From positions 4,218,501 through 4,282,500 of the forward strand of contig OX485807.1 in the NCBI GenBank assembly GCA_950295325.1: 64,000 bases of DNA, in the 5' to 3' direction. Source of the stretch: Polytrichum commune (lineage: Eukaryota; Streptophyta; Polytrichopsida; Polytrichales; Polytrichaceae). Shown here in pieces: positions 1,463-58,858 of this stretch (position 1 is the stretch's first letter; the number at the start of each line of letters is the position of its first letter). The notes beneath the pieces were generated by a model, which was given only the letters and a program-made list of their open reading frames with translations, was not told where the DNA came from and made no database searches. A program made the position numbers and the translations under genes.

Positions 1463-2982
1463 TAGGCTCTGAAACAACTCCATGCATAGGCAAGTAAGAG
1501 CACTTGCATGAGGGAATTTTGCACAATACACAGAGCAATCCTGAGTTGAACACTGTTGTATGTTCTTTGCATTGATCTGCATTCTTACTTTAAATTGAGT
1601 AGCATAGGCATAGTTAAGAATGTTGCATATTAGGCGAACTCTTATATTGTCCAGGCTTTCTGGCAAAGAAATTTTGTGAACAAGGACAACTTGATTTATT
1701 TTAGGTACATTCCTAGCCTACAAGGATGTTTGACTATGAATACACAGGCATTGTGAACGTTGTTTTGTCTGATGAATGCATCCTAGCTAAATTATGTGAA
1801 GGATACCATCAATGCTGTTTAACATGCTGGTCTGTTACCACCTCCAACAGCCACTGTCATAGAGGTTGTAACTGAAGTAATCCCACATAATTATTGGCCT
1901 TGCTCTGAGCATGTTTCTTGTTGTGGACCTCACAATACTATCAGAACCTTTATTCTATGATGGCAGTTTTCTGGTTTTTGTCACCTTTGAACCTACCTAC
2001 TGAACTACTGTACCATTTAAGCATTAAACTTAGGTTGACTCCAGAATGCTTGAAGGTTGGAGTATGCCAGCATTCTACTCTTACCTTGGGAGCAAAAAAT
2101 ATATCAAAGTTCTTATCAATCAAAAATGGTACACAGTTTTCAGTATGTGATGCACTACCTGGAGTGACTTAGTTTACTGAGCACCTTAGTTGTGATATGT
2201 TGTAGAAAATTGTCTTCTCACACGTGTTTGTGGAGGAGACCTCATATTTAGAGGTGATTTTACAACCACATGTGCTAGACCATGACTGAAGTAATTTCAC
2301 CAAAAGTAACAACACTTTTGACCACTTATGTTTAAGAGGTGTACAGAACTAATAACTCACCAAAATGCTTCAAAAACACTCTTATGATGTTGATGCCCAG
2401 CAGCCAGTGTCTGCTATGTGAATCCCACAACGCACATTAAGGAGGCAAACCCATTGCTGTGGTGCTTTTGCTCACCCACACGATTGTCCCCAAGAGATGC
2501 TTCAAGTAATAAGGTAGACGTGCCTAATTGAGTTACTTATCTTGATTGGACAACTATATTTGAGTGGTATGTGGTTTGGTGTGGCTCCAAGAATGGATAC
2601 CAAAAAGACACGTGTGTAAAAGAGATTGGATTGCATGCTCAAATATGCTAATCATTTTTAGTTTAAGGTAGAGACGTCCATAACTAATCACTTAAGAGAT
2701 TTTGCATCAAATCTGAAGAAGTATAAGGTGGTGTCAATTTTTCTTGTATAGGAAGATACAATCAAGAGGATTGCAATTTTTTCAGTAACTTTATTCCTTA
2801 AATTGGAAATACTATGAATTTTTTAAGCCAAAAGTTGGCCTGAACACATTTACACCAATGTGTAGAGTTTACCATAACCACTCATTCTGAGACGAATTCC
2901 TCCTCATTTTAGCACTCAAAACTAGGGACATGTGTCATGGCACTATCGATTCCCTAGTGACACTATAATTTAAGTTGGAGAC
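1463..2982. other. 3' flank and intergenic sequence of the UTP13 gene, no gene recognised
   Basis: No coding signal was found. The 3' UTR presumably occupies the first few hundred bases, but no poly(A) signal can be assigned with confidence. A stretch near 2590-2645 resembles pieces of the dispersed repeat at 42.0 kb and 59.6 kb. Confidence 0.5.
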
Positions 2983-2985
2983 TTA

Positions 2986-3369
2986 GGGTGAGTTTCCATG
3001 TAGGCCGCTTGCCCACTAGATTTTAGATAATAGTGGGTCGGAGGTGTTCGCATGTAGTTAAGCACAAGCTACTATTCAACCACATTATGACGGTCCGCTA
3101 GAATGTGGAGGGCTGTGGACACGGGCCACTAGACTTCCATGCGACCACTAAAGAATCTTTAACCTACAAGTGCCGGTCACTGAGAAAGGTTTTGAAGACC
3201 GGTTTTAGAAGGAGGAGGAGGTTAGTAGGTGGGCTTGGATTTGAGAAGATGGGAGTAGCTAGTTGGCACATATGAACCCTACCCCACTAGACTCCCTCTA
3301 CATTTGAGCAGGTGTGTCATTATTCACACTAGAATCTAGTGGGCGAGCTACCTACATGGAATCTTACCC
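2986..3369 (+). mobile_element. Tourist-like (PIF/Harbinger) MITE, copy 1, 384 bp
   Basis: The element starts GGGTGAGTTTCCATGTAGG and ends with the inverted counterpart CCTACATGGAATCTTACCC. It is flanked by TTA on both sides (2983-2985 and 3370-3372), the 3-bp target duplication typical of PIF/Harbinger Tourist MITEs. The terminal inverted repeats extend about 40 bp and include the CCCACTAGATTYTAG segment. It is the same family as 26894-27319, in the opposite orientation. No coding capacity is visible. Confidence 0.82.
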
Positions 3370-3372
3370 TTA

Positions 3373-3900
3373 GAAAACCAAGAACTATTGGTGTACAAGT
3401 TGGCAGGAAGGGTGTGCATTGATGTCGATCATCATCAAACAATTCTTCCATTGTCACCAGATTGTGAATATTCTTCTTCAACGCTAAAAATTGCATGCAA
3501 TCCTTCCTCATTGTAGCACCTGCAATTATTTGCAATTTTGGAGCTGAGCCTAGAAGAGTTTTAAGTTCTAAACATTCTTTTGGAGTTGCTTTCGGATCGC
3601 AAGAAAATGTAAAAAGTTTCATACAAGTGAAAATAAACACCTTCCTAGGGTCTAAATTATGACCTATAGACCCTTCTTTTTTTGGGAAATATTTGCTTAT
3701 GATTAGTCATGAAAACTATGACATTCTCACTAACTCGTGGTTTAATCAACGTGACATTTGACAATCATGTCTTGCTATGCACAAAAACCCAAGCCGTGAA
3801 ATGCGGAACCTTATTTTAACCACCCACAAAAAGAACATATCGAAATTAGTCCCAACTTTATGGATATTCTGATACCCTATATACTCCCGACGGGGTCTTG
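3373..3900. other. Intergenic sequence between the MITE and the copia insertion
   Basis: A 103-codon open frame on the minus strand (3329-3640) overlaps the MITE end and resembles no family I know. I see nothing else. The copia element inserted at the right edge of this stretch, at ATCGG (3901-3905). Confidence 0.4.
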
Positions 3901-3905
3901 ATCGG

Positions 3906-4303
3906 TGTTAAGAGTGAGGAAACCATGTGCATAATGAAACAGAGTAACGGTGCTAACTCAAACTCTTGAACTATCTTGATCAAAGGGGGAACTGTCCTTA
4001 TATACAATCTGGCTCGACACTTGGACTAGGTCCAAGTGTCGGCACCTGGTTACACCGTGGACTAGCTACCTCGGTGGGAATATTCTAGCTCGGCCTCGGT
4101 CTCCTATATCAAGACCGAGGCCCTTAACTAATTGTTTGCTCATAAGTTGAGATACCTTGGACTTGTGTGCACGGCCTCCTACCGGCGGCCGCCACTTTAC
4201 TTAAGGTGGCTAATGCCCATGTGGGACTAATTAATACCGATTAGCTTCCATGCTAGATGACGGTTAACCTAGGTTGCTTAGGTGCTTATCCATTATCTTA
4301 ACA
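3906..4303 (-). repeat. Copia 3' LTR (element orientation)
   Basis: It is 398 bp with termini TGTTAAG...CTTAACA, a 7-bp inverted terminal motif beginning TG and ending CA. It matches the other LTR except at three sites where this copy has C and the other has T (AACAG/AATAG, AACTC/AATTC, TTACACC/TTATACC). A TATA-like box (TATATAAGG on the minus strand) lies at about 3997-4007. Upstream of it in element orientation are two perfect hairpins, at 4015-4041 and 4092-4122. Confidence 0.95.
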
Positions 4304-9635: not shown

Positions 9636-10236
9636 CTATGAAATCAAACACTAGTAACACATGCCAGTGTCTACTCCTTAGTTTAGGTAGAAGAGCTTAA
9701 AACAGATTGGTTAGAATCTCAAAGTGAAAGTTTCCATGTAAATTTCGGCAGCATAACATTTCTGAAGGTGGAAAATTCAGAGAAAAAAAATCTGCAGCAT
9801 AACTTTTCTTGTGACTTGGTGAAAGCAGGAGGTATATCTAATTTGCTATTAACTATTGGACAATAGTTCGGTATTGTAACAATGTATGACTTTTCTACAT
9901 GAAAATCTGGGGAAAAATTTGGCAGCACTTCGGTACTATCACAACTATCCAGAATGTAGAAAATGGGGTAAGAAAGAGAGTAATGCTTTCAAATATAGTA
10001 GCTATCATGGAATGACAAAGAACTATATCTGATCCTAGACAAACTGTGCTTTCTGATAGTAGTCCAATGGTAAAACTATCTGTCTAGTAGTAAAAATGAT
10101 TTTCTGATGCCTTAAACAAGCTAAACATGCATGTCTATCTAGTGATCTCTCAAAAGTGACCACTCAAGTGCTCTTAGAGGTGATTGACTAACAATCTAAA
10201 GTGAACAATGAGGTGCTAGGAGCAGTGTTGATAACG
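9636..10236 (-). other. Copia untranslated leader
   Basis: About 600 bp between the 5' LTR and the first gag methionine at 9635 on the minus strand. It contains no long open frame and includes the putative primer-binding site at its LTR edge. Packaging signals would be expected here but none can be read off. Confidence 0.5.
10217..10236 (-). other. Possible copia primer-binding site
   Basis: Directly after the 5' LTR the minus strand reads CGTTATCAACACTGC. The TATCA core recalls the TGGTATCAGAGC site for initiator Met-tRNA used by many plant copia elements, but the match is poor. It is either a diverged or a different tRNA site. Confidence 0.3.
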
Positions 10237-10634
10237 TGTTAAGAGTGAGGAAACCATGTGCATAATGAAATAGAGTAACGGTGCTAATTCAAACTCTTGA
10301 ACTATCTTGATCAAAGGGGGAACTGTCCTTATATACAATCTGGCTCGACACTTGGACTAGGTCCAAGTGTCGGCACCTGGTTATACCGTGGACTAGCTAC
10401 CTCGGTGGGAATATTCTAGCTCGGCCTCGGTCTCCTATATCAAGACCGAGGCCCTTAACTAATTGTTTGCTCATAAGTTGAGATACCTTGGACTTGTGTG
10501 CACGGCCTCCTACCGGCGGCCGCCACTTTACTTAAGGTGGCTAATGCCCATGTGGGACTAATTAATACCGATTAGCTTCCATGCTAGATGACGGTTAACC
10601 TAGGTTGCTTAGGTGCTTATCCATTATCTTAACA
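10237..10634 (-). repeat. Copia 5' LTR (element orientation)
   Basis: This is the 398-bp partner of 3906-4303. It has the minus-strand TATA-like box at about 10328-10338, a 27-nt palindrome with a 12-bp stem and 3-nt loop at 10346-10372, and an 11-bp-stem hairpin at 10423-10453. As the 5' LTR it would hold the promoter that drives the genomic transcript toward lower coordinates. Confidence 0.95.
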
Positions 10635-19497: not shown

Positions 19498-19625
19498 TGG
19501 TAGAAGTGTCTAGGTTGTTTAGTGGCCTTCTTGTGGATTGAATGCCAACCATTCTGTAGTCCCCACTACCATTACACATAACTTGTTGTTGGTAGAAGTG
19601 TCTAGGTTGTTTAGTGGCCTTCTTG
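19498..19625 (+). repeat. Direct repeat of about 36 bp, spaced 92 bp
   Basis: GGTTGTTTAGTGGCCTTCTT and its preceding GGTAGAAGTGTCTA occur at 19498-19533 and 19590-19625 without mismatch. The second copy abuts the start of the LINE coding remnant, so the duplication may have arisen when that fragment integrated. Confidence 0.75.
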
Positions 19626-20440
19626 CCCCTTAAGTACCTAAACCCCAACTGTACACTATGTCATAACAACAACAAAGACACATGGCCCCACTTATTATCA
19701 ACATGCGAACATCCATACCTAAAGGGACTACGAATTGCACGGCACAACAAAGCAGTCCACCTCATCACTCAGACACTACAAGCCAATAAAAACACCCAGT
19801 CTTTCACTTTGACCAATGCATGCAACCTAACCAACCAACCCCCAAACCAAACAGTCGTAGAATGGCTCCTTAAATGCACATGCCCACAAAGAATATGTCA
19901 ATGTCATGCCAAACTAAGACCAGACATATTGTGCATTATTGGAGCCCCAAACCAAACACAAACACCTATATCACCTTCCCCAAACACACAGTTCAATTCA
20001 TCGAATTCACATACTACCACGACAAATTTCTTGAACAAGCCCTCATGCACAAACACACCAAATACGACCCACTAATCAATATCATACAAAACAATGGTTG
20101 GAAAACCAACCCCCTCATTACCATCACCACCGGAGTAAGAGGAGCTATACAAAAACAATCCATAGACCATTTAATCAAACTAAAAATCCTGAAAACCAAT
20201 ATTAAAACCCTCATGAAAAATATACACCAAAACGCCATCATATACCTCACTTACCTTGTCCTAAACAAAAGAAAACTAGATAATAAACAAACCCCTGTCC
20301 CTCCACCATAATGAAAGGGGTTAACTAGTACAACACCAGAGCCCACCTCCCAAAGGAGGCATTAACACCCTATACAACATCACGGGATATCGTGATCAAC
20401 ACAGGGCCAACGGGCCCGTATACATGCCGTACATTGGTAC
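19626..20440 (+). mobile_element. LINE 3' fragment, copy 1: CCHC finger plus restriction-like endonuclease
   Basis: Two overlapping + frames (to 20075, and 19874-20311) form one coding region broken by a single frameshift near 19965. It begins in a zinc finger CTLCHNNNKDTWPHLLSTC (C-x2-C-x8-H-x4-C) followed by RHNKAVHL. Then come RPD (residues from about 19918), EFTYYHD, and HKHTKY, matching the PD-(D/E)XK core of restriction-like endonucleases in R2/Dualen-type LINEs, and a Lys-rich C-terminus ending ...KRKLDNKQTPVPPP-stop at 20311. The sequence after the stop has two short perfect hairpins (CACGGGATATCGTG; GGGCCAACGGGCCC) and may be 3' UTR; the element's 3' end is not certain. There is no reverse transcriptase here, so the copy is 5' truncated. 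Confidence 0.72.
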
Positions 20441-22050
20441 GGACGTTATATTTCTTTTGTTTAGTAAATCATGAAATTGTTCTATGCTAGGACAATCACA
20501 AAGGTGTCAACCAATGATAGGACGCAAAATTTCCCTTAATCAACATAATAAGGGTAGTGTGGACATGATGGCTTACTAAAAATTGAGCTTAATAAGGGTT
20601 AGGACTAGCTTAACGAATTTTGTAGGGAACCCCCTTTGCCAATGGCAAGGGGGAAAACCGAGAGAGGAAGTTGTTAACAACCTCAAGTAGTAGCTTAAAA
20701 TAGGTGAGAGACCAAAAAATGGTCTAATAAGCATTTAGGGGTTATAATAAAGGCGCGTGACGCATGATTTTAGTGAAGAGTGCACCCCTGGGAGGGGCGC
20801 CAATGGCTTTGTTGGAGTACAAGACTGAGATCCATGGTTGCAAAGTTTTGTGAATGTGGCAGCAATTTCACTACAACATTGGTCGACGAAGGAAGCCAAA
20901 CCACAAGCAACAATGCATTCATGACTTTCTATAGTTCTTTTTAGATTGAGCAAAAACATGCTAAATGTGCACATATCCAACACTTGGTCGAATCCACTTC
21001 CTCATTTGAGTTTAGATCCAAGCCAAGGGATTTCAAAATGAGATAAGGTAGCTGCACCTGTGAGCATCCCCATCCCTTATACCAAAAAAAATTGGGCATT
21101 TTGTTTGGTGGAGTTTCATCATTAATAAATTTGACAAACAATGAAATGGTGTATTCAACTGGATGATATTTGACACACACCCACAAGTCAATTCGTGTGA
21201 GTTGATGATGAATAGTATGGGCCTCACCAGATCATTTGTTAGAAAACTGCTTTGCATACAAAACTCTGGAATACTAAAATCCGAGGACTCAATTTACTCA
21301 TAAATGCAATTCCATTTGGTTTAACCATAATCGTCCCAGCTAAAGCTCCGATATATGCAAGGTCTATCTATCTACACCGAGGATGTGCCTCATGAGATCA
21401 AATTCAAGTTAAATCATACCAACAAATTGTGATACATAAACAAATGTGACAAATAAAAACGAATCTTGTCTCCCGTGTCTTGTACAGATGCTTCAAAACT
21501 ACAGTGACACAATGTCCATTGTATGTTGACCTTTGCGTTTCAAAGAAGATCTTGTGCCTACTTGTTTAGAACCTGAACATCTACCATACACCACATGTTC
21601 GTCCCAACCATGGAGAAAATGGTGACCATCAGAATACGCCATCAAAATTCTATCATACTCTGAGCATCACCACACCAACACGAAAATGTTCCTTTGAGGT
21701 TTTTCCTTCTGTCTTCATTCTGGAAATCATTTAGTTCAATGCCTGTAATTTTTTGTGAGATTGAACTCAGAATATTTAATCACTCTATCATGCACAAATC
21801 TGGCTGCCATCACTCCCAATGCACGCATTCAAGATGAAATCCTCCAAAACCCTACACAAGCAAGCGCATGAGAGGAAAGGAGAGAAGTGGGGAGAATTGC
21901 TGCTCTTCGAAGAGGCAAGCTTGGTGAGGAGAAAATGAGGTTCGGAAGAGAGTGGGAAAGCCCAACCTTTTGCCAGTTAACTTAGACTGATAAGTGGGAA
22001 ATTAGGGTTCGGTAGAGAACTCTAGGGCTAAGGCTTTCAAACCTTGGACA
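20441..22050. other. Intergenic sequence with short minus-strand open frames
   Basis: Minus-strand ORFs at 20735-20983, 20941-21186 and 21033-21257 overlap in different frames and may be one decayed coding unit (for example VQLPYLILKSLGLDLNSNEE). I recognise no family. The rest is featureless. Confidence 0.3.
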
Positions 22051-28370: not shown

Positions 28371-29770
28371 CATCATTTTTTTCCAATTCAACATGTGTAA
28401 TTCCTGGGCAATTATATAATAAGTGACTCATTACTGGGCAGGTAGTTATTACATACACGTGACATTGATGCTGGAAGCGACAGCACCTGACCCCACTTTA
28501 TATATGTTTCCTGATAAAAGCTGATCTTGTTGATGGGTCGAGCATTTGCAACACAGAAAAAGTCATGCAATATATATATGTATATAATTTTTTTTTTAAT
28601 TCACAAGTTTTCATTGAGGAATTTCTATATAAATATATTATTTCTCAAAAAACCAATTGGGAGTTTCTCCGAATTTTGAATGCTCAGGCAGCTTGCTGAA
28701 CTTATAGGAAAGGTAAGTTGACATGTGAATTCAAGTTTAATGTCTAACATTCTGTGAAGACTTGTTGAGCTTGTGCAGTCTATATTGATTCAAGTTGAAT
28801 GAGCAGGATGCATTTACATAGCTTGTTTGCTATTTTTTGAACAAGATTTTATTAGTATTCATATCAAAGGCTTGATGGGCCACCTGCATGGAAGCAAATC
28901 AACATCCCTCATCACTGACAGTCTACAACACTCATTGATCAAAGTAACATTCTGGAAGTAAGCTCTAGAACAAAGGGAGAGTCTTGTTAATTTGTTGTGC
29001 ATCGGCGGATTGACTTATTACTGTTTGAGGAATCCCATCTAAAACCCCAAACATTTCTCAAACCAGCGGAATAAAAACTTACATATGGCCATCTACACGT
29101 GCATTTTTGTCAAATACACCATGACTATCTCTGTTCAACCCACTAGTACGCACATCATCGAGATCCATATATCCACACTTTTGAATAATTGCATAAGATA
29201 GAGCATTCTAACAGCATTACCCCACCCAAAACCAATACTTTAAAATCTTGCAAGATTACATTTGTAATCAATATGTACTTATATTGTAAGATTTTAGAGT
29301 GTTATAAATATTGTACATATTGATTTTGAGAACATCCACTACGTTGATATCAAGTTTCCTTAGGCCAAGCGTTTTGGGGCATTTACCAATAAAAATTTGA
29401 GCCCTTGTAACTTTTGCATATGGACTTCAAAGAAGGCATGCTTTAATGCGCTTGAATCCATCTTCAATTGCTAAAAGAAAGAAGGAAAATTCCATAAATA
29501 TGGCAATAGTAACTATACCCAACACTAAAAGTGACAATTTCTGCAATTGTCTACAACCAAGTTGCATCTTTGTAGTTTCTAGCTCACAAACAAATGATAC
29601 AGTTAAATTGTGTACAACCAGAATACTTAAGTTTCTTCCTATTGTGCCGGTGGTCTGCCATCTACAAAAATATTGTCCCAATTTACCCGCACTCTGATTA
29701 GGCAAACAAATCAAGTGCACCTGAGTGTTCCAGAAGATCCACTCATTCCAAATTGTAGAGCCTTTTTTGT
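28371..29770. other. Intergenic sequence, no gene recognised
   Basis: AT-rich, with an (AT)n/poly-T stretch near 28571-28600. The ORFs at 29427-29774 (-) and 29446-29697 (+) are mutual shadows with no family signal. Confidence 0.4.
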
Positions 29771-30377
29771 GCACTGCTTGTGGATTCTTACATTGTCAGC
29801 AATAAGGTGGTGTATTTACCAACATTAGCCACCTATCAGAGCACATGTGTTGTGTCTAGGATGTTCTCATGTTGTGTAGCGAGTATGCATGCATTGAATC
29901 ATGGCCTTTGTTTTGTGCACTGCTTGCGGATTCTTACATTGTTAGCACAAAGGTGGTGTATTTACCAACATCAACCGGCTATCAGGGCACATGTGTTGTG
30001 TCTAGGATGTTCTCATGTTGTGTAGCGAGTATGCATGCATTGAATCATGGCCTTTGTACATATCCTTTGTTTTGTGCACTGCTTGCGGATTCTTACATTG
30101 TCAGCACAAAGGTGGTGTATTTACGAACATTAGCCGCCTATCAGGGCACATGTGTTGTGTCTAGGATGTTCTCATGTTGTGTAGCAAGTATGCATGCATT
30201 GAATCATGGCCTTCGTACATATCCTTTGTTTTGTGCACTGCTTGCGGATTCTTACATTGTCAACACAAAGGTGATGTATTTACCAACATCAGCCTATCAT
30301 GGCACATGTGTTTGTGTTTGGGATGTTCTCATGTTGTGTAACGAGCATGCAAGCACTGAATCATGGCCTTTGTACAT
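29771..30377 (+). repeat. Minisatellite, four copies of a 146-159-bp unit
   Basis: Units begin GCACTGCTTGYGGATTCTTA at 29771, 29917, 30076 and 30235. Copies 2 to 3 and 3 to 4 are 159 bp apart; the first interval is 146 bp because it lacks a TACATATCCTTTG segment. A fifth, degenerate start lies near 30383. Because 159 is divisible by three, an in-frame 195-codon ORF (29869-30456) repeats a 53-residue block, but the variation between units is not codon-like and no promoter is seen. I treat it as non-coding. Confidence 0.88.
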
Positions 30378-31636
30378 ACCTGATGCACGATGCTCGCGGA
30401 GGTGCAAAATTACAGACAACATTCCGATATTCTCATGTCAGCAGCTCGTAGCTTAAATGATGACAACATTGTTGCACTTCAGAGCACCTAGCTAGCTAGC
30501 AGCTACATCTAACTTACTTGCTGCGGCCTGCTGCATGGTGATCAATATGATTCTCCAAACTCGCTGCATGAAGCCCTTATAATTTAAAACCCAACAACCA
30601 CAATGTGACACCTGGAAAATGCATGTGGGGATCGGTGACTCACCGCCCGATGACATGTGCTGGGCACTAGAAGAGGGACAGGGCTTGCAAGCTGCTCATG
30701 TCATACCCAAGATCTGGACAGGCAAGTAACTTAACTGAGACTTACATCAATCCCTGAGCTATATCAGATATGCCCCAGACATGGTGCAGAGCGAGCCACA
30801 CCAACTTAAGTTCTACCTGGAATACATATCATTAATTGAAGAGAAGCAGCTGGGATGGTAATCAAGTTATATATGCAGCCCCAGAGGAGCCTGGGAAATA
30901 ATATCATGATAATAGGCCTCAGTATATCTGTGTATAATAGGAAGGGCCTGCACGTTTACAACATCTGGTACTTAATTAGCTAGGGTATGATCTGATCAGG
31001 TTGCTGTGGAGTGAGTACCCACCGCCATGTGACTGCCTAATTACCCAAATATTGAGTTAGGTAACAAAATATTGATGATGGTGATGAACTTACTACAAGC
31101 TGCACTTAGAAAACTTATCACTCAATAGGAGCCTGGCACGAGTGCCCTAGGGATTACCCACACTTGGCGCCTGCAGGCTTAGGCTTATACTTATAATGCC
31201 ACTGGTTACCGTCCAGTCTCCAGAGTAACAACTAACTAACACCCATTAATACTTCGTATCTACCTTCAATCCCCTCCATAGCAAATCATAGAGTAAACTA
31301 TGATACTCACTCAGGAATGTACCAGTTGTAAGGCCGAGATCAGAGTCCATGGCAGATTTTGCCGGTACTTCCACCAGTTCATACCTCTGCAAGTGTGATT
31401 GCCAGGGAGCTTACTGCTGAGGGACTGCCTGCACACCCTCTTTGTTTGTGGGTAAGTGAGCAAGTAGCTAGGCTGCCCCCTTCACCTCACTGCCCTCACC
31501 TCCTTTTCTTTCTTCCTTCCTTCCTTCTCTTTTTATGTATGTCTTGGCATAGCATTATTCAGGTGCCTGGTTGAGCTCTTCTTCTATATTTAGCATCCAA
31601 TAAGGGCCCACAATCTTTACCTTCGTGGGGAAGAAA
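30378..31636. other. Intergenic sequence with one exon-like island
   Basis: At 31341-31453 a stretch between ATCAG and GTAAGT reads ILPVLPPVHTSASVIAREL, then TAEGLPAHPLCLW, which resembles a genuine exon with good splice sites. No partner exon was found nearby and no family is recognised, so it may be a gene fragment. The remainder is featureless. Confidence 0.3.
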
Positions 31637-34149: not shown

Positions 34150-34640
34150 CACTTTTTCATTCATTATTTTCATTTGGTAATAGTCCTCAATGACTACTAT
34201 GTCCATTCTTGTCAGGTTTTGCATTTGGGTTGTAGGTTTTTACAAATTGGTGGCTCTTGGAGAGCTCATAGCTCTCTTAAGTTTTGCTCTCCGAATTGCA
34301 GCTAAGTTATTATGGTATTATCTTTGTTTGTTTGATGCAATCATTGAGTTACAAGTTCTAAATGAAAAAAACACATACTTAGTGATATTTTTATTGGAAA
34401 ATGATGATGGATTCTATACTTGAAAAATACATATTTATATTCATGATTTATATTTTATATATGTAGTGGAGCCAACATTAAATTGAAAAACTTAGTATAA
34501 ATAAATGAATCTCATTTCTAGCATGTCGTTAGTACACATACATTTGTTTCTCTATAGACTTTGTGTATATAAAGGGATTAACTTCATAGTCATCCACACA
34601 CGTCATTTAGGTTTCCAACGATGAGTCCACCCCTAAGTCC
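34150..34640 (+). repeat. Dispersed repeat of about 480 bp, copy 1
   Basis: It is homologous over its length to 57360-57815, same orientation, beginning near GGTAATAGTCCT and ending AGTCCACCCCT. Identity by eye is about 75 to 80 percent with small indels. The 57-kb copy interrupts a LINE coding region, so this is a mobile sequence. No inverted termini or target duplication were found. Confidence 0.7.
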
Positions 34641-41623: not shown

Positions 41624-42024
41624 TAAGAGCATCCTCAGTCGGTCTAGGTAAAGCTCACTGCAAACCAAGACCTATCTTGCTTAAAATTGCTCAAAATTTA
41701 GAGGGAGTGCACCAAATCTTGCTTAAAAATGGACAGATCCTCCCACACTCCCTCTAAATGTCAAAAATTTGGAGGGAGTGTGGGAGGATCTTTTCATTTT
41801 AAAGCAAGATTTGGTGCACTCCCTCTAAATTTTGAAAATGTGGTGTTTTCAATGAGGGATTTCACCTACGTCAAATTTTTACAATTCTTTTTTCTTGAGA
41901 AATATCTCACGTTCATTTAGGTGTGCTTCTAATGATGGTAATTTCAGTTTCTAATTTTAGGTCAGTCAAAAGATAGGTTTTGGTTTGTAGTGAGCTTTAC
42001 CTAGACCGACTGAGGATGCTCTAA
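41624..42024. mobile_element. MITE, 395 bp, with GAGCATCCTCAG ends and a nested hairpin
   Basis: The element is 41627-42021. The terminal inverted repeats begin GAGCATCCTCAGTCGGTCTA and extend about 50 bp with few mismatches. TAA flanks both ends, a 3-bp duplication that fits PIF/Harbinger. Inside its left half lies a separate palindrome at 41692-41834. Confidence 0.8.
41692..41834. repeat. Nested 143-bp hairpin, ~69-bp arms, almost no loop
   Basis: The arms at 41692-41760 and 41763-41834 pair with about four mismatches, including GAGGGAGTGCACCAAATCTT against its exact inverse. A transcript would form a long near-perfect duplex of the kind processed into small RNAs. It is either a second MITE inside the first or an internal expansion. 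Confidence 0.8.
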
Positions 42025-44862
42025 TAAACATACATTGAAAAGACGTGTGCTACAATGAGATTGGAGTGTGGGGCTCAATATATAGACATTCGTCTAGGTT
42101 CAATACCTAACGCAAGTGGAAAGGCCTATGGGATCATTTTAGATGAAAGACCATCTTCAAGTTGGACTCTCTTAACTTTCTCATCTCTACTTTGATTATG
42201 AACTTTGAAATGACATTCGTCCTTATTTGACCTTAGATTGTTGACCGGATGACCATATTTCCAAGTTGACATGTTTTCACTAGCGACCAATGACAATGAC
42301 TGTCGAATTATGAAATCTCTTATTGGTTGAGAAATGACTAGCAACCCACATCGTTTTACACAAGGTCATAAAAAATAAAAGTGACTATGAGTGAGAATGT
42401 CATAATATGGATGAGGAAGAGACATGGAATCCTACATGCTTTTAAATGAATAATGCTTGGTGGTCACTTGTTTTCTGCCTTTTAGAGAACCCAAATAAGT
42501 TGTCTCAATGCAAATCGAGGTGATGATAATAGAAGGGATATTTTATCTTAGAAATTTTCATTTTAGAATATCTAATTGTAGGCAACATGATTTTTAAACA
42601 TTCCTTTTATCCTAGAAAACACTACATCCCGATCTAAGTTTGCTTTACACTATGTCCCATGACCAAGGTATTTAAAAAGTGATGTGGGTTTGACTTGGTC
42701 ATGGTCTTTGACACCGCTGACCATGACCACGAAACCTAAATCATTTTTTCTCATGGTCCTTAGTCATGTGTAAAACAACCCTTAGTGTACGTTCAAGATG
42801 CTAAGTGAGATGTGATTGTCATTAACTCAATTGGCTAGTAGGCAGAATTTGGATGAAAGTGCATAAGCAACCACCGATTTACATGAGAGTGCAGATGTAT
42901 TCGTTAGTAACCTTTTGAATTTGTATTATGTAATTTTGAAGGTTAGGTTATGGTTAAACGAGCATGGCTGCAAATCTTAGACTAACATGCTTGTTGTGTT
43001 GAGCTCATGATCATGTCTCGTCCCATTGAAAGATAATATGACATATTCCATTACCACACGATCCAAACAACTAGGAAATATATGTAAACAAAATGAGTGA
43101 AATATTGCAGTGTCAAGTGAATCTTATGTGAAAATGTGTGACTGTGACATGTTTTTCACTACACCATTTGTGGTATTTAGTGCCACACATGTAAAAATGT
43201 CACTTAGTACAGTACCCTATTACGAGGCCCATGCTAGGTTACACTAATGACCAACAACTTGATTAGTAGCATAACTTCATAACACTTATGGTTAGTGGTG
43301 TATGCTAATATACTATTAGTATGCTAGAGAGAAGAGAGAGAGAGAGAAGAAACGTTGACCATAGGTTAGCATGATTGAAATGGCCGTTCGACCCACCCTT
43401 GGTATTATACCCTCAGGGCATAATAATAGTGGTGCAGGACTACTAACCCCTCTCGGGGTGGGCACTATAGTTATCGGGGTAATCGAGGTGGATGCCTCGT
43501 ATGGACGTTGTGTTCGAATGTTAGTGACTTGGCATGTGCTATGTGGTTTTGCTTGACATGAGATTATAGCCCACAACCCTAGCTTGGGTTGGAGTGCTTC
43601 CTTAGCTGTCATTGGCATTTAATCTTTTCTTTTCATCCTAATTATTAATTTGTTGGCGGGTATTTGGGGTTATTATGGTAGTTGTGTATGTGTTGGTAGT
43701 GGCTCGTTGTTTTCTATTCTCCTTTTGTGTAGGATTATGGACATAGCATATTGTATGGCAATAACATTAATTTCCTCAAATGCGTGCTTGATGTTTATCT
43801 TGGGGATTTTAAATATTGTTTCAATATTTTTCATAGAGGGGGTATGTGTGGCTGCCCTAGCACCATCCATGATGACTATTAGTGGATCTATGTTCCAACC
43901 TCAATTGGTTATATTGTCTATTAACGGTTTATATTTTTTTCTATTTTTCTAGTTATAGTATCATCTGGTATTCTATCGTTACAGTATGTGAATTCCATGA
44001 ATTGTATTGTTAGGTTCTCATTCGGTTTTGTCTATTAGTATGCTACATAACATCGTGAGGTCTATCCCCATGCTACACAATGGTCAACAAGTTGATCACA
44101 AGTGTAAATACCTGACCAATCTTGTCACTAGTAAGCTCCTCAATATTGTCCTCTTGCATATCAAATTGTAAACACATGACATCTGCCAATACAATGTTCA
44201 ACACTATCTTCCTCTTGGATACTAAATTGTGAACACATGGCACTTATCATTAATTTGCTAAACTCTCTCTCTCTCTCTCTAGCATTTGCAACACTCCGAT
44301 GTGCTACGCTGAACATCAGACTGTAAACAATTATGCACTTCAAGAAGTTACTTATGTTGTCAATTAGCGAATGTGACACTACTATGCCTTCAATGAAGCA
44401 TCTAGTTGAGACCATTCACGTGACACTAAGTTACATTCCATAAGATGTGTAGTGGGCGACTGTGCTGAGGAGCTTTCAAGTTTGCTGCACTCCAATGAAA
44501 ATCTCCCACCCACGCAGCTGCCGATGCCTCCATGTGAACACGGCATGGCCCTCTCACGCTCCCTCGCACTACTAACTTAAACCACGTGCTGCCCCACTCA
44601 TCACTCCTAAACTTAGATGGCTAATTTAAACCTACGTCCCCACCCACTCACTCGCATACCTTCATTCTTGTAATCAACCCATTTAAATAAGTAGTTTGGC
44701 GGCTGAGTCAGTCACCTGAAGCTGCATTAAATGGCCGTAATCCAGTTCTTGCACTTATCATTTTCCCGCACTCCTAAATCTAGATGGATCAATGAGTGCA
44801 AATTACAATCTCCCAAAACTTAAGCTTACAGGGCTCCCAAGGCGCTGAGTCTATATTCGGCC
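42025..44862. other. Intergenic sequence with a dispersed repeat and microsatellites
   Basis: About 42030-42210 resembles 59585-59790 (AAAGACRTGTG, GATTGGARTG, CATTCKTCTAGGTYCAAT-type strings). A (GA)n run lies at 43326-43349 and a (CT)n run at 44262-44280. A 100-codon + ORF at 43650-43952 is hydrophobic but resembles no family and is probably chance. Confidence 0.4.
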
Positions 44863-47458: not shown

Positions 47459-48143
47459 TCCTTAACTCCCCCTCCGACTCTGTAGGGATCTCAAAATATT
47501 TTGTTGGAATAAACCGTTACTTGTAAGTAAATTGCAGAGCAGGCTGCTTGTGGCTTGAACAGCCAAGGACGTTGTTAACCCCTTAATCCCTTAGCACCAT
47601 TCTCCTCAAAAGTGGCCTCGAATCACTAATTGTTCCTAAGAGAGATAATTTAGGACTCGATCTGTAGGTGTTTTTGAGCATCCAACCTACACCTTAAGTC
47701 CCCCTCCGACTCCGTAGGGCTTTGAAAATACTTTGTTGGAATAAACCGTTACTTGTAAGTAAATTGCATAGCAGGCTGCTCGTGGCTTGAATAGCCGAGG
47801 ACATTGTTAACCCTTGAATCCTTAAGCACCATACTCCTCAAAAGTGGCCTCGAATCATTATTTTTTCCCAAGAGAGATAATTTAGGACTCGATCTGTAGG
47901 TGTTTTGGAGCACATCTTAACTCCCCCTCCGACTCCGTAGGGATCTGAAAATATTTTGTTGGAATAAACCGTTACTTGTAAGTAAATTGCAAAGCATGCT
48001 GGTCGTGGCTTGAACAATTGAGGACGTTGTTAACCCCTAAATCCCTGAGCACCATTCTCCTCAAAAGTGGCCCGAAATCGCTAATTGTTTCTAAGAGAGA
48101 TAATTTAGGACTCAATATGCAAGTGGTTTTGAGCATCCAACCT
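47459..48143 (+). repeat. Tandem repeat, three copies of a ~223-232-bp unit
   Basis: CCCCCTCCGACTCYGTAGGG recurs at about 47468, 47700 and 47923. Each unit then has GTTGGAATAAACCGTTACTT, CTCCTCAAAAGTGGCC and AGAGAGATAATTTAGGACTC, and ends with GAGCATCCAACCTT or a derivative. Identity by eye is around 90 percent. No coding frame persists. Confidence 0.88.
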
Positions 48144-56620: not shown

Positions 56621-56955
56621 TTGGACGCCTTGCACAAATTCAAATGATCATCCAAAATGCCACATTGGCATGTTCTTCACCTTGTTGGGGCATAATGTGA
56701 TTTTTCCATCACTCTCCAGGCGGACACCGCTCCTTCTTAGGATATTGTATTGGCTACAACTTCCACTGAAAATTATTTGTGGAGGTTAAGGAGCATGAAT
56801 TATGCTCCTTGCCATTTCCACAACGATGCAATTCGCACACTCCGCCACTCCATTTTGTTGAAGCCTATACAGGATGAACGTTTGCTTCTCAATACCATGG
56901 TCCTTCAAAGACTGCTCGATTGCCTTAGAAATGTACTCCATGTCGTTCCCAACCA

Positions 56956-58858
56956 ATCATACTATATGGATGGTTCATTCACACCACCAAATATTGATGG
57001 AAACAAAAACACTGCAGGGTCATGAGCATTTAATGGCCCACTACATATTCACATAGAGACTAAGCTCCCATATTACCCATAACTACACGCCATACTCTTA
57101 GCAATAGGAAACACTAAATCTCTAAATATCAATACATTCATATTTTCAAATAGCCTCAACAAGATATACCTCCTCCTCGACCACATTAAACATCATTGCT
57201 CACAATACAATTACCCAGATAAATTACTTATTGCACACATCATAGTTGCCATCAACACCTCGAAACACAACGTCCAATTTAAATAGTTAGAGCACACACA
57301 CACACACACACTCACACACCTTAGTGGGATCAAAGTGATTAAAATGCTTGTTTACACATTCATTGTTGTCATATGGTAATAGTCCTAAATGACTACCTTG
57401 TTCATTCTTGTAAGGGTTTGCATTTTCATTTTTCATTTTCTTTAATGTACAAACTCTAGGCCCTTAAGTTTTGCTCTCTGGATTGTGGCCAAGTTATTGT
57501 GCTCTAGTCTTTATTTGTTTGATGCAATCCTTGAGTTACATGCTATGGATAACAAAGTTTCATTGACTTTCTCATTGGAAAGTGAAGGTGGATTTTATAA
57601 GTAATAAAGGCTTATTTAATTCATGATTTTTATTTATTTAATGTATTGGAGGCATTTATTGCATTAAATTGAAAAGCTTAGTATGAATACAAGAGTGTAA
57701 CATGCCATTAGTACATATACATTTGGTCTTCTATATAAACTTCTCACATATAGGGGATTTTGTTTCATAATGACCCACATACATCATTTAGGTAATCAAT
57801 GAAGAGTCCACCCCTGGGTTAACAACGAAGTAGCAAACTTGCTAAAAAATGGAGTGCTAGAACCACAACTTATAATAACCCCACTCCACCTAATGGGACA
57901 TCAAACACCTTCTAGCCCTCAATTCCACCAACATTTACCCAATATGATGGCTCAATAATGAACCTCAAAGCCTACATCAAAAAAGAATATAAAAGTGCAC
58001 TCATAACTCACGCCACAAACACCATCCCATACGTCAACTAATAGTTGTCCAACAAAGACCTCCACTTAACCATATCCAATCTTTTATGAGATGCCAAATA
58101 AAGAATAAGTGCCCAAATCTTAAGATTCTAACATGGACAATATATGGGAAATTAGGAGAAAACGCGTACTCAAACATGACATCTCCCCAACATGTAACCT
58201 CTGCAACCTCAAAGAAAGCGATACATGTCTTACACCTACTATCTTGCTGCACAAACCAACAAATTGATAAACACACATAACAAAACCACCCATACCGTAG
58301 TAAACACCCTCATGGCAAAACCAACTACATGTTTCTTCACACTCATAAATGCAGGCACCATGAACAACCAAACACTCAACAACGCTATCCCATCAAGGCT
58401 CCTCCCATGCACATACCACCTTCCAAGATGCCAAACTACACCTAAATAACATTTGCATAATAGTCACGCCACCAAATGCTAGCCCCCATTTACACCAATC
58501 CAAATCCTCAAATTCACATATTGCAATGACAGATTCCCTAAGGCCAGCACAACACCGGAAAAAAATATATATGCAATACTACAACCCCTCCTAGAACAAC
58601 AAGGACGGATTGTCCTCCCCCCATCACTACTACGACTGGGATCACAAGTGCCATACACACAACATCACAACTATTAGATCTTAAATACTTCAACATAAAG
58701 TCAACAAACTAATGGAAAACATCTCACAAATTGCTATCAAATACCTCACTCATATCATATTAAACAAAGGAAAACTAGAGAAGAAACAATTGCCGACACA
58801 TGAACTAAAAAACACTAACCAACTAGAAATAGAAACAACTAGGCATTAAGCCACCCCC
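56956..58858 (+). mobile_element. LINE 3' half, copy 2: RNase H, CCHC finger, restriction-like endonuclease
   Basis: RNase H starts at about 56961 (YMDGSFTPPNIDG), continues at 57040-57290 (LHAILLAIG; SNSLNKIYLLLDHIKHH) and, after an inserted repeat at about 57300-57815, resumes VNNEVANLLKNGVLEPQ. Next come a linker (LKAYIKKEYKSALITH), a zinc finger TCNLCNLKESDTCLHLLSCC, HNKTTHTVVNTLMAKP, and the endonuclease remnant (IQILKFTYCNDRFPKA). It aligns with 19626-20311 from the finger onward. RNase H catalytic residues are lost: the Glu codon position is TAA and two Asp positions are Asn. There are many other stops. It adjoins the copia integrase relic directly, so it is 5' truncated. Confidence 0.78.
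57300..57815 (+). repeat. Dispersed repeat, copy 2, interrupting LINE RNase H, with (CA)n at its left
   Basis: It is homologous to 34150-34640 from GGTAATAGTCCT to AGTCCACCCCT. A (CA)n microsatellite at 57291-57310 lies at the junction with the RNase H frame. The RNase H sequence continues on both sides, which shows that this segment was inserted. Exact edges cannot be set and no target duplication is visible. Confidence 0.7.

Follow-up and report, generated by a model that had tools for sequence, protein, structure and literature searches.

Remains of a probable Dualen-like non-LTR retrotransposon with a PCIF1/CAPAM-like domain in the land plant Polytrichum commune

The window analyzed here, a stretch of 64,000 nucleotides of Polytrichum commune contig OX485807.1 (assembly GCA_950295325.1, positions 4,218,501 to 4,282,500), contains the remains of large LINEs at three places (Table 1): an old, interrupted relic near 58 kb, a younger 3' end near 19.6 kb, and a minus-strand relic near 44 kb that was absent from the initial annotation. 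The motifs named in that annotation do lie on the plus strand and are homologous to an element family found throughout the genome, with tblastn E values of 2e-17, 5e-20, and 1e-51/8e-47 against ORF2 of the genome copy L015. The family falls into two lineages, here called A and B; the 44-kb relic, which is 40 to 60% identical to lineage A (L015), is nearer B, and the other two are nearer A.

Table 1. Remains of the elements in the window (window coordinates)
Feature	Position	Strand	Evidence
RNase H, 5' part (YMDGSF, LHAIL, SNSL) of an old lineage-A-type relic	56936..57274	+	tblastn 43% over 122 columns, E 2e-17, to L015 ORF2 aa 1823-1944
Unrelated DNA interrupting RNase H: CA run and 94-bp repeat	57275..57775 (limits approximate)	.	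no element match there
RNase H, 3' part with NNEVAN (about 57821-57838)	57776..57910	+	local alignment score 48, reached by 1/500 shuffles
Linker, frame-shifted CCHC finger (about 58184-58240), HNK, remains of the RLE-like region	57856..58795	+	tblastn 29-59%, two frames, E 1e-32 to 5e-20
Younger lineage-A copy, 3' end: CCHC finger and RLE-like RHN, RPD, EFT, K-x2-KY	19620..20308	+	tblastn 64-77%, two frames
Structured RNA in the 3' UTR of the 19.6-kb copy: outer stem, hairpin, long internal stem, 3' hairpin	20338..20453	+	95.5 bits, E 2e-20, to covariance model R1
Short pyrimidine-rich tail, 3' end of the 19.6-kb copy	20454..20462 (end approximate)	+	read from the sequence
Third relic: C-terminal part of the RLE-like region of a lineage-B element	43676..44025	-	tblastn 63-67% to L066, 59-63% to L064

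In the 58-kb relic, the series of RNase H motifs described earlier is present, but some 0.5 kb of unrelated DNA interrupts the domain, and the 94-bp repeat in this DNA has a second copy, 80% alike, at 34276-34369; NNEVAN, the last RNase H motif, lies downstream of this insert. The alignment score of the 3' part in its own frame was rarely reached by shuffled sequences (Table 1), and the scores of the other two frames were matched by 419 and 452 of 500 shuffles. Further downstream, two pieces within 57928-58795 matched L015 ORF2 from the linker to the end of the restriction-like endonuclease (RLE)-like region (31% and 59%, E 5e-20); remains of the proposed finger and PD-(D/E)XK-like region thus persist, but the finger requires a frameshift and, by our reading of the sequence, the active-site PD has been lost. 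The 19.6-kb fragment does repeat the finger and the RLE-like region with RHN, RPD, EFT, and K-x2-KY, yet spread over two frames (76% and 64% identical to L015 ORF2, E 1e-51 and 8e-47). Its finger spacing had to be corrected: C-x2-C-x9-H-x4-C, as in L015 and L064, rather than the x8 given originally. At the DNA level it is 77.5% identical to the genome copy L012 over 845 columns, with 39 further scored genome matches at 80 to 92%. We regard the window fragments as very probably defunct copies of a large non-LTR retrotransposon of Dualen-like type that is active, or was until recently, in the host plant.

Several other repeats were seen in the window: tandem arrays at 47461-48143 (three copies of 228 nt) and 29754-30378 (about four of 159 nt), a 300-nt direct repeat at 3905-4204 and 10236-10535 (99% identical, 6.3 kb apart), and a 69-nt inverted repeat with a 7-nt loop at 41691-41835 (94% complementary). 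Elsewhere in the genome, positions 2813-3694 of piece L003 hold a 294-aa open frame that by eye resembles a pogo/Tigger-type DDE transposase.

The genome searched comprises 407.8 Mb, with seven large contigs of 42 to 78 Mb each; it has four matches to the LEAFY family, all above the cut-off, as expected of a land plant or a near streptophyte relative. A query from the RLE-like region gave 4,863 rough first-look candidates; each of the 150 that were scored matched, and 8 had frames of more than 1,000 aa free of stops; a query covering RNase H and the linker gave 3,149 candidates, with 150 of 150 scored matching. The six lineage-A copies with the longest frames (L012 to L017; 2,038 to 2,422 aa) were read. 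L012 has a single frame of 2,422 aa in which RVT_1, RNase_H, Exo_endo_phos, and Exo_endo_phos_2 exceed the Pfam cut-offs and PCIF1_WW falls below, and L015 shows the same Pfam picture in 2,305 aa; about 49 aa of the reverse transcriptase (RT) present in other copies are missing from L012. All motif groups, from NPGP to the RLE-like region, stand in one frame in L012, L014, and the lineage-B copy L064, and those from the apurinic-type endonuclease (APE) to the RLE-like region in L015 and L016 (the WN motif pattern missed L016, which reads WNM). The longest frame of L017 begins inside the APE, and that of L013 ends before the finger; as we read them, all six have a break somewhere in the two ORFs. 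Three copies (L013, L014, and L017) are 98.6 to 99.4% alike over 11.9 kb, from which we conclude that the family moved recently; the other lineage-A subfamilies are about 70 to 76% alike in ORF2 DNA. The element is about 11.9 kb long in the best-measured subfamily, and no Pfam family exceeded its cut-off in ORF1 (best E, 0.055). In another lineage-A copy, L010, no RT was recognized by eye upstream of RNase H; it is perhaps an internally deleted form.

Lineage B was read at seven places (L062; L063 and L064, which are one place; and L065 to L069). These places come from searching the genome with PF12237, which yielded 697 candidates; all 150 that were scored exceeded the cut-off. L064 carries in a single frame DIETNPGP, the APE, an RT with YADD, PCIF1_WW, RNase H, the CCHC finger, RHN, KPD, EFT, and K-x2-KY; this frame has at least 2,746 aa, running past the piece read, and 2,919 aa in the PF12237 genome search, and RVT_1, RNase_H, PCIF1_WW, and Exo_endo_phos all exceed their Pfam cut-offs. 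The two lineages (L015 versus L064) share 42% protein identity over 2,356 columns, as well as the domain order and a covarying RNA structure in the 3' UTR. Searches of a viral contig collection, with the RT, the RNase H-RLE alignment, and the R2 RT as queries, and of a collection of other genome contigs confirmed no relatives. On these copies we are confident of the following architecture: an ORF1; an ORF2 with a 2A-like NPGP motif, APE, RT, PCIF1/CAPAM-like domain, RNase H, CCHC finger, and RLE-like region; a 3' UTR with RNA structure; and a short tail of simple repeats.

Upstream of the RT, PF03372 exceeded its cut-off in L012, L015, and L064, and PF14529 did so in L012 and L015; the APE motifs are WN, QETK, GDFN, and SDH. 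RNase H (PF00075) matched all 14 lineage-A C-termini at E values up to 0.01 and is also present in L064. Each of the six lineage-A copies has NPGP upstream of the APE, twice over in L013, L014, and L017, and within lineage A these motifs are in frame with the rest of ORF2 in L012, L013, and L014 only. The StopGo/2A core is given as (D/G/C/N)(V/I)ExNPGP in a passage of one paper (PMC12846837); this core can be read in L012, L016, and L064, and NPGP lacking the E in L015 and in L013, L014, and L017, so that the motif is a candidate 2A sequence. Selection was estimated with a Nei-Gojobori script, with undefined (saturated) pairs and pairs of very low dS dropped and with many dS values above 1, and the C-terminal domains were sampled in ten of the fourteen C-termini. 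The median dN/dS was 0.14 for the APE (5 of 6 pairs used), 0.04 for the RT (2 of 3), 0.20 for the PCIF1-like domain (45 of 45), 0.08 for RNase H (41 of 45), and, within lineage A, 0.10 for the finger with the RLE-like region (44 of 45). As estimated from these codon comparisons, the values show purifying selection on the predicted APE, RT, and RLE; the PCIF1-like domain is likewise estimated to be under constraint, though its ratio is above that of RNase H or the RLE.

The region read as a restriction-like endonuclease begins with the finger, which by itself proves nothing, since L050, an L1 of the same genome, has the identical C-x2-C-x9-H-x4-C spacing. In 13 sequences from both lineages, no variation occurs in the finger, RH, the P of PD, the E of EFT, K-x2-KY, or a C-x-C-x4-C-x-C cluster, and the D of PD is replaced by N in one row (L038); about 190 columns downstream of the finger, including PD, E, and K-x2-KY, are conserved across the two lineages. 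Endonuclease mutants of R2Bm are named KPD/A and K/ARNKY in part of a paper on that element (PMC6895275), and by our own reading its KPD and KRNKY sites would be the same motif pair as (K/R)PD and K-x2-KY here. When the profile of both lineages was compared with the PDB, R2Bm came first, at a nonsignificant E of 0.53 over 42 positions of the finger-RHN stretch; searches with a single sequence (phmmer) or a single-lineage profile gave chance matches only. Pfam placed weak zf-RVT matches on this region in 5 of 12 sequences (best E, 0.089), RNA_binding in 2 of 12 (0.11), and no nuclease. An AlphaFold model from RNase H to the RLE-like region was poor (pLDDT 42.8), and its best 50 Foldseek rows were RNases H or RTs with RNase H, with no R2 among them. 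Motif order and conservation, together with the nonsignificant best match to R2Bm, therefore support the region as a putative RLE.

The 3' UTR folds into four helices, with 88.8% of alignment cells paired. Twelve of 36 pairs had changed on both sides, compared with a mean of 5.8 in shuffled alignments, none of which (0 of 500) scored as high, and with at most 4 when the structure was slid along the alignment. A covariance model (R1) built on the window copy together with 20 rows of lineage A detected the 3' end of five of six lineage-B loci (E 0.001 to 0.01; three of the five are near copies), and in the sixth, L065, the piece ends inside the stretch concerned; the score of the 19.6-kb copy (Table 1) is high partly by construction, because that copy is a row of the source alignment. 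The model had no match in four L1 loci or in L003 and one chance-level match in the window (E 0.4), and no Rfam family reached threshold in 8 loci and the window. By eye, the lineage-B 3' UTR (L064 to L069) also has a stretch resembling the T-arm of a tRNA in reverse complement; an ARAGORN scan of 8 loci found no tRNA.

The element ends in short repeats, which by eye are of the TTTTC type in 20 lineage-A copies and of the CTAT type in the lineage-B copies L067 to L069. The part of a survey devoted to such tails reports non-A 3' repeats, including ATT and CTATTT, in 8 of 8 RandI families and poly(A) tails in 224 of 233 flowering-plant L1 families (PMC3747384); by this comparison the tails are RandI-like and unlike those of plant L1. 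The flanks beyond the tails differ in all 20 copies as read by eye, with no common target, and on these grounds we reject target-specific insertion. Words of 12 bases are repeated at the 3' junction of L014 and L017, as expected of target duplications, and the duplication of L013 was read by eye only, because that copy lies in a satellite. The three near-identical copies L013, L014, and L017 (upstream pieces L019, L020, and L023) resemble one another only downstream of approximately the first ATG; the leaders between the duplication and this ATG differ, with 16, about 58, and about 53 nt, and when up to 3 mismatches were allowed in a genome search the two longer ones matched only their own loci.

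Dualen is described in passages of two papers as having an APE, an RLE, and an RNase H (PMC4640811, PMC3636483), the set predicted here together with an RT in one element, and RandI families share the non-A simple-repeat tails in the survey (PMC3747384). The APE and RLE-like region, the RNase H, and the non-A tail fit Dualen/RandI, which supports the initial proposal that this land plant has a Dualen-like LINE. The likeness is drawn from the domain set and the tails as set against published descriptions, with the RT compared with those of R2 and L1; the tails would, if anything, raise the case for Dualen membership. The host differs: Dualen/RandI elements are listed for green algae only in one source (PMC4438587) and reported also from cryptophytes in another (PMC12747079). 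Passages on Dualen retrotransposons, an incomplete coverage of the literature and no proof of absence, name no land-plant Dualen. The NPGP motif and the PCIF1/CAPAM-like domain between RT and RNase H may be further differences from Dualen.

Among sequences of solved structures, the RT matched R2 best (9nl2, E 3e-39; R2Bm, 1e-24), ahead of human L1 (3e-20). When 22 RTs were compared in a maximum-likelihood tree (7 from the element, 3 from R2, human L1, and 11 L1-type RTs of the same genome, R2 and L1 being the only references), the element, R2, and L1 groups stayed separate, with support of 100/99 for the L1 split, in agreement with an earlier tree built without L064, in which the element likewise fell outside L1. 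L012 was left out because of its RT deletion, as were L060 (gypsy-type) and near-identical PDB chains. In this unrooted tree the split between R2 and L1 leaves the element with R2, on a long stem of 2.5 changes per column about which the tool issued a long-branch warning. The element shares with R2 the CCHC finger, RHN, (K/R)PD, and K-x2-KY downstream of the RT, and differs in having an APE, an RNase H, a PCIF1-like domain, and an ORF1 and in lacking a common target; an RLE as sole endonuclease, a single ORF, and insertion into 28S rDNA, which would make it an R2, were not what was found. The placement on the R2 side, the long stem of its own, and the extra modules (the PCIF1-like domain and NPGP) would suit a new RLE-type clade on the R2/NeSL/Utopia side that gained its APE independently of Dualen and works like Dualen without being one. 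We consider this unlikely, though it is the most serious alternative: the same set of APE, RLE, and RNase H is already described for Dualen (in parts of PMC4640811 and PMC3636483), RandI tails are also non-A (in the portion of PMC3747384 on tails), and the tree, which carries the long-branch warning, uses no references other than R2 and L1.

Far less probable is a plant L1 that acquired an RNase H and kept the usual zf-RVT finger, the supposed RLE being a conserved tail with no nuclease function. L1 elements of this genome do carry an APE and RT, with zf-RVT in 2 of 3 scanned; the in-genome L1 L050 has the same finger spacing, 5 of 12 element C-termini have a weak zf-RVT match, and some plant L1s carry an RNase H according to a passage on them (PMC4640811). 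Against this reading, the element RT lies in another clade, outside the 11 in-genome L1-type RTs and human L1 at 100/99, and is nearer R2 than L1 in its PDB scores. The RNase H of plant L1 is described in the same passage as archaeal-like, with R replacing the H of D-E-D-H-D (PMC4640811), whereas the element keeps the H (VRAHTGI in L015, VKAHINI in L064). Some 190 postfinger columns are conserved across both lineages at a dN/dS of 0.10 within lineage A; the tails are not poly(A); and three in-genome L1 frames (L052 cut by the end of its piece and L053 by a break) contain neither RNase H nor PCIF1_WW in Pfam. The RT tree, RNase H type, downstream conservation, and tails together lead us to reject it. 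That two elements merely came to lie side by side, one the source of RNase H and the other of the finger and endonuclease, is suggested by the 0.5 kb of unrelated DNA between the halves in the window and can be dismissed, since both halves share one open frame in L012, L014, L015, L016, L017, and L064 and RNase H itself starts before the insert and ends after it; the single open frames thus bear out the earlier assignment of both to one element. The question of one or two elements and that of L1 membership were both addressed on single genome copies instead of a consensus.

The most novel part of the element is the PCIF1-like domain. PF12237 exceeds its cut-off of 31.1 bits in the lineage-B copies L064 and L066 (45 to 52 bits; L064, 47 bits), and PCIF1_WW matched each of the 14 lineage-A C-termini at E values up to 0.01, remaining below the Pfam cut-off in L012 and L015. 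For an AlphaFold model made with no templates and of low confidence (pLDDT 52), the first six Foldseek matches in the PDB were human and zebrafish PCIF1, with E values of 1e-5 to 9e-4 and TM-scores of 0.24 to 0.35. A profile of lineage A only did not find PCIF1 in the PDB, and for the profile of both lineages zebrafish PCIF1, at E 1.1, was the sole match up to E 10. The catalytic motif of PCIF1/CAPAM is NPPF. It is absent in 13 of 13 aligned sequences, which at that place (located by our own reading) have AFPT, AFPK, AHPK, AYPT, AHPP, or AHPH. The domain thus resembles the cap-adenosine N6-methyltransferase PCIF1/CAPAM in its match to PF12237 (lineage B) and in the PCIF1 structures at the top of the Foldseek results, and it differs in lying inside a retrotransposon protein and in apparently having lost the catalytic motif; it may be a noncatalytic binder of RNA or cap. 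Among the titles listed by literature searches, none concerned a PCIF1 domain in retrotransposons. We tentatively propose, giving the idea slightly less than even weight, that dual-endonuclease LINEs of early land plants captured a PCIF1/CAPAM domain before the two 42%-identical lineages split and that it was kept under selection after losing its catalytic motif, probably as a module that binds capped RNA and ties the protein to its own full-length mRNA.

The element would most likely move by target-primed reverse transcription. One of the two predicted endonucleases would nick the target; the RT would recognize the structure at the 3' end of the RNA and start cDNA synthesis on the short-repeat tail; RNase H would clear away the RNA template; and the second strand would be cut either by the other endonuclease or by the host, leaving duplications of 11 to 12 bp at nonspecific sites. 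The PCIF1-like domain might bind the element's own RNA at its capped 5' end. Both the enzymatic activities and this division of the cuts between the endonucleases are predictions from the domain content.

Dualen is the known link between LINEs that cut with an RLE and those that cut with an AP-type endonuclease. With near-identical, recent copies in a land plant and thousands of rough candidate relatives, the roles of the two endonucleases may become testable in a plant system. If confirmed, the PCIF1-like domain would be a new LINE module and would suggest a way of selecting capped, full-length RNA. If our proposal of its capture is true, a protein that combines it with an APE, RT, RNase H, RLE, and 2A-like motif would be one of the most domain-rich of LINE proteins, and the transition between RLE-type and APE-type LINEs could be studied in living land plants.
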